Shown in pieces: positions 9,648 to 13,186 of a stretch of 64,000 bases of DNA. This DNA comes from Corallococcus sp. NCRR (GTDB lineage: Bacteria; Myxococcota; Myxococcia; Myxococcales; Myxococcaceae). Numbering within the stretch: the first letter of the stretch is position 1; each line of letters opens with the position of its first letter. The notes below the pieces were generated by a model, which saw only the letters and a program-made list of their open reading frames with translations, was not told the origin of the DNA and did not search any database. Where the stretch lies: the NCBI RefSeq assembly GCF_026965535.1, contig NZ_CP114039.1:4340001-4404000 (forward strand). Reading direction: 5' to 3'. A program made the translations under genes and the position numbers.

Positions 9648-10901
9648 ATGTCGCGGCGCGGTCTGCTCGCTGTCTGTCTCCTCCTGTTCGCCTCCTGCAA
9701 ACGGCCCTCTCCGGCGAACGCCGACGCGGGCACGGATGCGGGCACGGCCACCACCGCCGTGGCGGCCGACGCGGGCGCGCTCGCGGAAGGCCCCGTGGAC
9801 GCGGAGCCCCACGGCGCCGTGAAGCGCCCGGACGACGCGGTGGCGGAGGTGCACCCGCTGGCGGTGTGCGACGCGAAGGGCCGAGCGCCCCTGGACGCGG
9901 CCCGCGACTCCTACGACGCCGGCCACTATGAGGAGGCGCTCTCCTGCGCCGCGCAGGCCGCCGCGCTGGAGCCGGACCTCGCCGCCGCCCATGCGGAGCG
10001 GGGGGCCGCGCTGGCCGCGCTCAACCGCGAGCCGGAGGCACAGCTCGCCTACGCCCGCGCGCTGGCCATCGACCCGGGGGACGCGGACGCGCTCCTGGGC
10101 GCCGCGCACCTGTACGCGGTGCAGCTGCCCTCCACGCGCGAGCGGGACGAACTGGGCGCCCTCTACGCCGAGCGTGGCCTGTCCCAGCCCTCCACGCCCC
10201 CGGAGCTCGTGCCGCCGCTGGCGCTGGTGGCCGCCATGGCCTTCAACGACCTGGGGCAGGCGGACCAGGCGTTGGACCGCGCCGCCATCGTGCTCGCCCG
10301 CGAGCCGGGCAACGCCGAGGCGAAGTACGAGAAGGCCCTGGCCCTCTTCGAGCTGTGCCGCTTCCGCGAGGCGAAGGCGGCCTTCGCCTCGCTCCTGAAG
10401 GACAAGGATCGCGCGGCGCACGCGCACCAGCACCTGGGCTTGCTGCTGGAGCGCGAGGGCCAGTGGGCGAAGGCGGAGGACCACTTCCAGAAGGCCCGCG
10501 CGCTGGAGCCCGAGGACTTCCCCCCGCCGCCCCTGCCGTCCGCGGACGAGTTCAAGGCCCAGGTGACGCGCGCGCTGGCGGACCTGCCCGAGGACATGCG
10601 CCGCGACCTGGAGGGCGTGCCGGTGGCCACGGAGGAGATTCCCTCCGAGGACGACCTGCTCGCCAACCAGCCGCCCCTGTCGCCCACCATCCTGGGCCTG
10701 TTCCGGGGGCCCTCCCTCCAGGAGCCGTGTGACGGCTCGGAGACGCCCTGCCGCTCGGTGGCCCTCTACCGGCGCAACCTGGCCCGCGCGGTCCGCACGC
10801 CCGAAGAGCTGCGCGAACAGATTCGCGTGACACTGCTGCATGAAATCGGGCATCTGCGCGGGGAAGACGACGAGGAACTGGCCGCGCGCGGCCTGGAGTG
10901 A
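9648..10901 (+). CDS. TPR lipoprotein with C-terminal zincin-like metallopeptidase domain
   Basis: This 417-residue lipoprotein has a signal peptide and lipobox (LLLFASC), then an Asp-Ala-Gly-Thr linker. Several TPR-like helix pairs span about 75-300 (for example [18 protein letters not shown] and [18 protein letters not shown]). The last 75 residues form a domain with [10 protein letters not shown], where His398, Glu399 and His402 fit the HExxH zinc site of the short zincin family (PF06262 type). The fusion of a TPR scaffold to this small peptidase on a lipid anchor suggests an envelope protein that holds partners near a protease domain; this is inference. It overlaps or abuts the methyltransferase gene that follows. 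Confidence 0.75.
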
Positions 10902-10909
10902 GCCCCCAC

Positions 10910-12088
10910 ATGCCTTCCCTTCCCACTGCCCGGGTCAGCCTCAAGGGCGCCAAGACGCTGCGTCGCGGCACCCCCTGGGTGTACCGCACGGAGCTCACCG
11001 ACGCCCCCGCCACCGACACGCCGGGCGCGGTGGTGGCCGTGGTGGATCCGCAGGGCAACCCCATCGGCCAGGCGCTCTACGCCCGCCGCTCCCCGCTCGC
11101 CCTGCGGCTGCTCACGCGCAAGGGCCCGAACGAGGAGAAGGTGGACGACGCCTTCTTCATCCGCCGCCTGGAGGCCGCGCTCGCCCGCCGCGCCGTGCTG
11201 CCGGGGCGGGACGGCCTGCGCCTGGTGCACGGCGAGGCGGACCTGCTCCCCGGCTTCTTCGTGGACCGCTACGGCCAGGGCCTCACCGTGCAGACGCTGT
11301 CGGAGGGCATGGACGCGCGCAAGGAGATGCTCGCGAAGGCGCTGGTGGAGAGGACGGGCGCGAGCCACGTCGTCTGCCGCGACGACGCCTCCGGCCGCGA
11401 CTTCGAGAGCCTGCCCCGCGAGGTGCGCCTGCTGCACGGCGAGGGCGCCGCGCGCTTCACCTACCACGAGGGCGACAACCGCTTCGACGTGGACCTCCTG
11501 GGCGACATGAAGACGGGCGCGTTCCTGGACCAGGTGGACAACCACCTGCGCGCGGGCGAGCTGGGCCGGGGCGAAGCGCTGGACTGCTTCAGCTACCACG
11601 GCGGCTTCGCGCTCGCGCTCGCGAAGCACTGCACGTCGGTGCTCGCGGTGGAGCAGGACGCGAAGGCCGCGGCCCGCATCCAGACCAACGCGGAGGCCAA
11701 CAGCCGCGCCCACGTGAAGGTGGAGAACGCCAACGCGTTCGACGTGCTGCGCCGCTTCGACCAGGAGGGCCGCCGCTTCGACACCATCGTCCTGGACCCG
11801 CCCGGCCTGGCCAAGCGCCGCGAGGGCCTGGCCACCGCGCTGCGCGCCTACCACGAGCTCAACCTGCGCGCCCTGCGCTGCCTCAAGCCGGACGGCCTGC
11901 TCGTCACGTGCTCGTGCTCCGGGAAGCTGGACCGGCAGGGCTTCGAGTCCATGGTCCTGGACGCCGCCGCGGACGCGAAGCGCCCGGTGCAGATTCTGGA
12001 GCGGCGGGGCGCCGGCCTGGACCACCCGGTGCTCGCGGGCCTCGCGGAGACGGAGTACCTCAAGGCCCTCTACGTGCGCGCCCTGTAG
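10910..12088 (+). CDS. Class I SAM-dependent rRNA methyltransferase (RlmI-like)
   Basis: This protein of 392 residues resembles the large-subunit 23S rRNA cytosine-5 methyltransferases (RlmI/RlmK family). A PUA-like N-terminal domain ([18 protein letters not shown]) is followed by the Rossmann methyltransferase core: [18 protein letters not shown] for SAM binding, [12 protein letters not shown], the catalytic-region [10 protein letters not shown], and TCSCSGKLD. The ATG at 10910 was chosen; a GTG at 10898 that overlaps the upstream stop is an alternative adding four residues. It is probably transcribed with the TPR-zincin gene. The exact target nucleotide is not known. Confidence 0.88.
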
Positions 12089-12099
12089 GCCCGGGCGCG

Positions 12100-12603
12100 C
12101 TACGGGATGCCCAGCTCCTTGCGCAGCCGGCCCACGACCTTGAAGTACTCGGTACGGGAAAAGCCCACGTTGAGGATGTGGAAGTCCTTCTTGGACAGCC
12201 CCACGCAGCCGAAGCAGTAGTTGCAGTCCTGCAGGTTCTTGCTCATCACCACGTACGCGCTGCTGGAGCAGTTCTCGCTCTGCACGCAGTAGGCGCACGC
12301 GTGGCAGTTCTTGCACTCCACGCAGTGCGAGCAGTTGGTGCACAGCTCGCACCGCGTGCAGTGCGTGCACTGGTGGCAGCTGTCGCAGTCCTTGCAGAAC
12401 ATGCAGTTGGCGCAGCGCTGACAGCCCTCGCACGCATAGGAGCCGGGGTTGCCCGGGTCCACCGCGTAGCTCTTGGACAGCTTCTGGAACTGATCCATGA
12501 ACTCGCGCTTGCCCAGGGACGACACGCCCAGGCGCGCCGCCTTCTCCTGCTCCATCAATTCCTGGGTCGTCTGGGGCCGCGACCCCTTCTCCTTCACCGC
12601 CAC
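12100..12603 (-). CDS. Protein with cysteine at every third residue
   Basis: This is a 167-residue protein. The start is taken as the GTG at 12603, which has AAGGAG five bases upstream. After a charged N-terminus (about 55 residues) comes a run in which 17 cysteines fall at strictly every third position (residues 58-106, codons 12286-12432), for example CEGCQRCANC and CTNCSHCVEC, then further cysteines in phase and a C-terminal DCNYCFGC. The C-terminal 40 residues (FHILNVGFSRTEYFKVVGRL) look like an ordinary folded segment. No signal peptide is seen, so it is probably cytoplasmic. It follows the lipoprotein gene at 12626 by 22 bases. The regular thiols suggest metal binding; no function is established. 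Confidence 0.7.
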   Translation of the reverse strand: MAVKEKGSRPQTTQELMEQEKAARLGVSSLGKREFMDQFQKLSKSYAVDPGNPGSYACEGCQRCANCMFCKDCDSCHQCTHCTRCELCTNCSHCVECKNCHACAYCVQSENCSSSAYVVMSKNLQDCNYCFGCVGLSKKDFHILNVGFSRTEYFKVVGRLRKELGIP

Positions 12604-12625: not shown

Positions 12626-13186
12626 TCACTGCAGCCGGGCGAGCCCGGCCAGGTCGATGCCTCGCGCCACCCGCCGCACCTCCACGGTGCTGGGGAAGCC
12701 GCGGCTGGTGACGGCCACCACGAACCGCTCGCCCACCAGGAGGTTCGCCTCCGCGACGGACTCGTCCGCGTCATAGCGCACGAAGCCCACGGCCTCCTTC
12801 CACTGGATGGGCGCCGTCGGGTCGCTTGCCGCGCGGCCCTTCGCCTTCTGCGCCGCCTCGCGGATGGCCTGCCCCAGCTTCAACCCCATGGTGGTGTCCA
12901 CGATGCGCACCTTCACCTCGCGGCCCTCGCCCCGGGTGTAGGTGCGCTCCGCCTCCGACACGGACACCTCGCCGTACTTCCCCGTGGAGCCCGCGGTGGC
13001 ACCCACCGTGAAGCCCTCCAGCGACTCCGGCAGGAACGGCGCCAAGTCCTTGAAGTACACGCACGGTGCGGCGGTCGTCACCACGTCGCGCGGGGTGGGA
13101 GATGTCGTGCGTTCGTCGTCAAGGCATCCGCCGCCCACGCCGAGCGCGAACGATGCGATGGCCAGCCGGAGGAAATAGTCGCGCAC
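12626..13186 (-). CDS. Putative lipoprotein of unknown function
   Basis: This 186-residue protein starts at the GTG at 13186, which gives a standard signal sequence (VRDYFLRLAIASFALG) ending at a glycine-rich lipobox (VGGGC). An ATG at 13240 would extend the frame into the start of the helicase gene on the other strand. The mature part is a mixed alpha/beta domain (SLEGFTVGATAGSTGKYGE through VEVRRVARGIDLAGLARL) with no recognised family. It is probably cotranscribed with the downstream Cys-rich protein. Its start is only 34 bases from the divergent helicase start, so the two promoters overlap. Confidence 0.65.
   Translation of the reverse strand: MRDYFLRLAIASFALGVGGGCLDDERTTSPTPRDVVTTAAPCVYFKDLAPFLPESLEGFTVGATAGSTGKYGEVSVSEAERTYTRGEGREVKVRIVDTTMGLKLGQAIREAAQKAKGRAASDPTAPIQWKEAVGFVRYDADESVAEANLLVGERFVVAVTSRGFPSTVEVRRVARGIDLAGLARLQ

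Follow-up and report, generated by a model that had tools for sequence, protein, structure and literature searches.

What kind of protein carries a cysteine at every third residue, without a break, over 49 residues? Such a protein is encoded in the window, i.e. the whole stretch of 64,000 nucleotides of the Corallococcus sp. NCRR genome that was analyzed. A sequence-only reading of this DNA had noted 17 cysteines at strict every-third-residue spacing, giving no strand, and had suggested either a three-residue-per-turn structure with all thiols along one face or a dense metal-binding ladder. The count and the spacing are exact. The gene lies on the minus strand and the Cys-x-x run occupies codons 12432..12286 (residues 58-106), with 17 consecutive cysteines (58, 61, ... 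106). The further cysteine described as in phase is residue 112 (12270-12268), the 18th of the series, and three more in-phase cysteines are found at 127, 130 and 133. All 21 cysteines in the translation of the 167-aa frame share one phase. The good ribosome site and the preceding lipoprotein gene of that reading were also recovered, as listed here with the other features of the locus:

12603 to 12100, minus strand: cysteine-ladder gene of 167 codons with a GTG start (sequence)
12614-12609, minus strand: ribosome binding site AAGGAG, 5 nt before the GTG (sequence)
12463..12570, minus strand: predicted N-terminal helical hairpin, residues 12-47 (AlphaFold2 (AF2) model and alignment columns)
12196..12432, minus strand: predicted beta-solenoid of 12-residue coils, residues 58-136 (conservation, covariation, AF2 model)
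12217..12399, minus strand: outer ladder F69-H81-H93-Y105-Y117-Y129, one residue per coil on a sheet face (alignment columns)
12142..12219, minus strand: invariant C-terminal motif YCFGCVGLxKKDFHILNxxFxRxEYF, residues 129-154 (alignment; the AF2 model is unsure after about residue 140)
12626..13186, minus strand: upstream, co-directional lipoprotein-like gene, separated from the ladder gene by a gap of 22 nt (sequence)
10898..12088, plus strand: convergent neighbour encoding a PUA plus SAM methyltransferase (RlmI-like; Pfam PUA_3)

When the residues of the ladder protein were shuffled 20,000 times, the longest Cys-x-x run was at most 7, against 17 observed, and none of the other frames of the window has a run of more than 5. 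The gene is present in a single copy in the 9.79-Mb Corallococcus genome. Of 195 Myxococcota genomes, 132 contain homologues (E<=0.001), as do 110 of the 149 near-complete ones, and synonymous differences exceeded non-synonymous differences in every orthologue pair tried. The homologues and the synonymous excess indicate that the ladder frame is a real, translated gene, and the concern that it might be untranslated was thereby removed. No signal peptide could be recognised in the protein by eye, and a promoter scan yielded nothing.

In the GTDB collection 71 loci were found by a scan that relied on close-relative patterns, the real distribution being possibly wider. Almost all of their titles name myxobacteria or deltaproteobacteria, among them Corallococcus, Myxococcus, Pyxidicoccus, Archangium, Anaeromyxobacter, Minicystis and Labilithrix. 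One locus titled 'Comamonas sp. KCTC 72670' (L049) carries a Myxococcus-like ladder copy with 81% identity to the query, and its title is probably wrong. The ladder protein gave no match in Pfam, NCBIfam or PDB sequences, and neither did its C-terminal segment. A role in anti-phage defence was rejected, as PADLOC gave no match. No relatives turned up in viral contigs, whether these were scanned with the protein, with the alignment or with a degenerate form of the C-terminal motif. Literature searches uncovered no paper on the family; several of the queries were narrow, which makes this absence weak evidence. The CPR 'caib/baif' cysteine-rich proteins, which might also carry the C-terminal motif FGCVGL...ILN, provide a lead. 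An uncharacterised protein family spread through the Myxococcota is defined, marked by its invariant C-terminal motif and a conserved aromatic/His face.

Homologue comparison had been proposed as a way to see whether it is the spacing that is conserved and not the sequence, and this is indeed what was found. In an alignment of 52 non-redundant sequences, in which homologues share 31-82% identity with the query, the repeat contains no insertion or deletion, even at 31% identity. The three-residue periodicity is thus kept among homologues, although the cysteine itself is replaceable. The every-third positions (58, 61, ... 133), referred to below as inner positions, hold Cys in 72%, Ser in 16% and Leu in 8% of cases, with few Val, Met, Ala and Thr. 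The number of cysteines per protein varies from 13 to 23, and only four columns (C64, C112, C130 and C133) hold Cys in 95% or more of cases. Because cysteine is replaced by Ser or Leu, the count varies and so few columns are nearly invariant, the requirement appears to be for a small or apolar residue that fits inward at a fixed spacing, rather than for the thiol itself. A loose alternation of the substitutes with a period of 6 was noted (p 0.005 for column similarity, p 0.07 in a Fisher test by position), resembling that in the consensus of the Tenebrio antifreeze protein described below.

The length of a turn was derived from the alignment alone, independently of any structure model. Autocorrelation of the entropy profile, taken within phase, was found at lags 12, 24 and 36 (r 0.55, 0.49 and 0.35; permutation p <0.0002, 0.0008 and 0.026), and none at lags 6, 9, 15 or 18. 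APC-corrected mutual information, averaged over the residue pairs at each separation, was maximal at a separation of 12, exceeding even that of adjacent residues. The covariation peak at 12 was recovered in each clade separately, with p<0.0002 for the H81 group of 72 sequences and p=0.0066 for the Y81 group of 20. A three-residue-per-turn helix (3-10 or polyproline II) was rejected in view of this coupling at 12. Structure prediction, another check that had been proposed, was run as AF2 with the family alignment and likewise yielded 12-residue coils, not three residues per turn: strands recur every 12 residues, at 56-58, 68-70, ... 116-118 (model numbering, protein minus 1). Over most of the solenoid the pLDDT is 92-98; it drops to 64-68 in the C-terminal tail. 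Conservation, covariation and model all point to 12 residues per turn with four inward positions per coil. The structure suggested by the sequence-only reading does not agree with this; the thiols would lie inside, occupying all four inner positions of each coil, and not along one face.

With perfect repeats AF2 has a known tendency to predict beta-solenoids too often and with high confidence (PMC11795689), and the solenoid might be a modelling artefact, the segment being in reality extended, disordered or otherwise folded. A Cys-poor homologue (L088) folded on its single sequence gave a pLDDT of 37 and no confident model, which tells that the family model leans on the alignment. The repeats of the ladder family, however, are imperfect, and the 12-residue coupling exists in the alignment without any model and in two clades separately; an artefact is regarded as improbable. 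A solenoid of 12-residue coils is considered likely, with good confidence.

Alignment of the AF2 model by VIA-align placed the Tenebrio antifreeze protein (TmAFP; 1ezg) on top, with a Z of 10.4 and an rmsd of 2.7 over all 82 residues, while the next unrelated chain scores 6.6. Foldseek alone gave no PDB match to the model at E<0.001. In a search of PDB sequences with the A1 profile, 1ezg also ranked first, weakly (E 0.0056), and this sequence match is largely Cys composition. In TmAFP the side chains point out-in-out-out-in, and of the consensus TCTxSxNCxxAx residues C2, S5, C8 and A11 face inward, with a C2-C8 disulfide in each coil (PMC8038014). The same inward rule would yield a Cys-x-x pattern. 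Given the 12-residue conservation and covariation, the AF2 coils and the TmAFP match, the cysteines most likely line the interior of a right-handed beta-solenoid of 12 residues per coil.

The cysteine-rich antifreeze proteins of Tenebrio molitor and Dorcus (1EZG, 1L1I; IPR016133) share with the predicted fold of the ladder family the 12-residue coil and the inward orientation of every third residue. They are secreted and disulfide-bonded, with two Cys, a Ser and an Ala inside the coil and a Thr-Cys-Thr ice face. The ladder protein, by contrast, has no recognisable signal, has up to four cysteines per coil, and possesses an aromatic/His ladder, a helical N-terminus and a C-terminal motif. Neither the TmAFP consensus nor a Thr-x-Thr face was found in the ladder family, and there is no Pfam match. 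The outer ladder face appears, from the structural alignment, to lie where the insect protein has its Thr-Cys-Thr ice-binding face. Its sheet-face columns, F/H/Y at 69+12k and K/T/V/F at 71+12k, read [F/H/Y]-C-[K/T/V]. Thus, although the nearest solved fold is that of an antifreeze protein, an ice-binding function is hardly credible: there is no Thr-x-Thr array, no secretion signal was seen, and the carriers are soil myxobacteria that presumably have no obvious cold habit. The solenoid would account for the sequence oddity through a known architecture, one that probably evolved on more than one occasion, in convergence with the insect protein; the one-in-three Cys rule is what a 12-residue beta-solenoid permits.

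Three other systems resemble the ladder. Pentapeptide-repeat proteins also form a quadrilateral right-handed beta-solenoid, but have five residues per side and four pentapeptides per coil, and their structural matches are weak (Z 4.5-4.6). Phage ladders of PHROG 15341 (Campylobacter phages CP21 and CP220, Vibrio phage 1.238) share the unbroken Cys-x-x pattern, and differ in their N-termini, in lacking the C-terminal motif and in having no clear 12-residue period. The PHROG 15341 profile matches 52 of 52 family members (best E 1e-10). Its match to the query is confined to residues 55-135 (profile 49-130 of 276), leaving the N-terminus outside. The similarity lies mainly in Cys spacing, and common descent is not claimed because such a similarity between Cys lattices is expected by composition.

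The third system are the heterocycloanthracin precursors (TIGR03601), thiazole (TOMM) bacteriocin precursors with the identical pattern of Cys at every third residue. These may lie far from their maturation genes (PMC2674419), and YcaO genes are present elsewhere in the genome of the window. Heterocycloanthracin precursors, however, are short, consist of a leader and a core, contain tripeptide indels and depend on a cyclodehydratase. In the ladder family the repeat is free of indels across the 52 non-redundant sequences and the C-terminal motif is long and invariant; the ladder gene also occurs in at least 20 near-complete genomes that lack a YcaO cyclodehydratase. The absence of YcaO and of indels nearly refutes the idea that the ladder protein is such a precursor, and its probability is judged to be very small.

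Several phage and plasmid ladders were encountered. CP21_166 of Campylobacter phage CP21 (L143:2096-2950) has 284 aa and 76 Cys in runs of 54, 5 and 12, is longer than the ladder of the window, and its gene directly precedes a T4-like DNA ligase gene. CP220 has 27 consecutive Cys-x-x units. The ladder of Vibrio phage 1.238 has 21, and its protein is annotated as an insect antifreeze protein. Ladders of Vibrio, Flavobacterium and metagenomic phages (L144:2483-2857, L145:2453-2872 and L151:1001-1500) have a common N-terminal domain, MKTQIF...REDKS.NGVS..FA...N, with 60% identity between two of them, followed by Cys-x-x ladders with different fillings. In Flavobacterium phage FL-1 an annotated Pro/Ala/Val-rich CDS (APZ82901.1; L145:2580-2924) overlaps the Cys-ladder ORF in a different frame; the ladder frame, which has the homologous N-terminus, is more likely to be the real gene. 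Plasmid pCfviMP1 of Campylobacter fetus (L146:2498-2899) carries a Cys-ladder ORF after DNA topoisomerase 3, for which no gene is listed in the incomplete PLSDB table; its N-terminus resembles those of the Campylobacter phage ladders. Fold matches in BFVD include a 'Caib/baif family protein' of Campylobacter virus IBB35. The top viral match is A0A5B8IEK9 of Mimiviridae sp. ChoanoV1 (138 aa, E 4.3e-8, 26% identity), which may be another ladder or a relative.

What the thiols do inside such a rod was considered next to the metal-binding ladder of the sequence-only reading. As a solenoid metallothionein, the protein would store Cu(I), Zn or Fe-S, bound within the rod or along it. Its 21 Cys in 167 residues in a presumably reducing cytoplasm, the strong preference for Cys over Ser or Ala, and the retention of two neighbouring outer-ladder His (81/93, or 93/105 in the Y81 clade) are in line with a metal or cluster store. 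Ser, Leu, Val and Met, however, which replace inner cysteines, are unable to act as thiolate ligands, and a total that falls from 23 to 13 with just four columns nearly always Cys does not fit with a store. The conserved Cys ligands of metallothioneins were not found, and no metal-handling gene recurs among the neighbours examined. Metal storage is therefore disfavoured and judged unlikely. Stacked thiols might alternatively oxidise reversibly to disulfides and thereby switch the protein, making it a thiol/redox or persulfide buffer or sensor. The positions of the C2-C8 disulfide of TmAFP (PMC8038014) are mostly Cys in the ladder protein. Coupled loss of cysteines six apart is absent, however (mean phi 0.003 at lag 6), which argues against fixed disulfide partners, and a redox function is held to be quite unlikely. 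Rather less probable still is a continuous thiolate channel, built from free thiols stacked in the four inner columns, that would hold a row of metal ions or persulfide sulfur, while ions or electrons would move in and out by way of the outer His/Tyr ladder.

Packing of the core, rather than metal ligation, is thus the probable role of the cysteines. The Cys-x-x run would form the interior of a tight, cytoplasmic, right-handed beta-solenoid with 12 residues per coil and about six coils. The side chain of every third residue would point inward and need to be small, with Cys as the usual residue and Ser or Leu as substitutes. How some twenty core thiols would be kept reduced, and why Cys is preferred over Ser or Ala, become testable questions. 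Helices would precede the rod, and F35 and L42 of the N-terminal hairpin are invariant in the 52 non-redundant sequences. The most conserved part of the protein is the C-terminal segment after the rod, with YCFGCVGLxKKDFHILN and R150, Y153, F154 and L160. The likely working surface is formed by the Phe/His/His/Tyr/Tyr/Tyr outer face together with the segment YCFGCVGLxKKDFHILN...R..YF. The outer ladder reads FHHYYY in 70 of 92 sequences and FYHHYY in 16 of 92, mostly of the Polyangia type. In the latter the His pair is retained, displaced by one rung; this shift is probably a single evolutionary change that should not be counted many times.

The gene neighbourhood gives hints on function. In the Myxococcaceae the ladder gene often follows the lipoprotein-like gene, which recurs in part of this family and in two more distant loci (L103 and L104), and faces the RlmI-like rRNA methyltransferase gene, with UvrD and a TPR gene nearby. 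Directly downstream and on the same strand, dtd (D-aminoacyl-tRNA deacylase) was found in 16 of the 16 non-redundant Polyangia-type loci:

L079, L080, L084-L087, L089, L091, L092, L094-L097, L099-L101: ladder gene followed by dtd, a fixed pair

The paired dtd was identified by sequence. Its reading frame ends about 450 nt past the stop of the ladder gene, which implies that dtd starts within a few bases of that stop. Across genomes, dtd (Pfam PF02580) was counted in 167 of 195, and in the window's own Corallococcus genome it lies about 1.1 Mb from the ladder gene. The pairing is clade-specific, other clades having other neighbours. One clade thus keeps the ladder family in a fixed partnership with a tRNA-proofreading gene, and this adjacency hints at a translation-linked role; the lead is real in this clade and only suggestive elsewhere. 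The ladder protein could be a non-enzymatic binding module near translation, interacting with tRNA, the ribosome or a translation factor. This binding role goes further beyond the data than any other part of the explanation and is put forward tentatively, as a possibility rather than an expectation. The explanation as a whole, a solenoid core combined with a binding module near translation, is on balance favoured. In one further locus (L116) an ABC-F-like gene lies directly downstream of the ladder gene, a weak additional hint towards translation.
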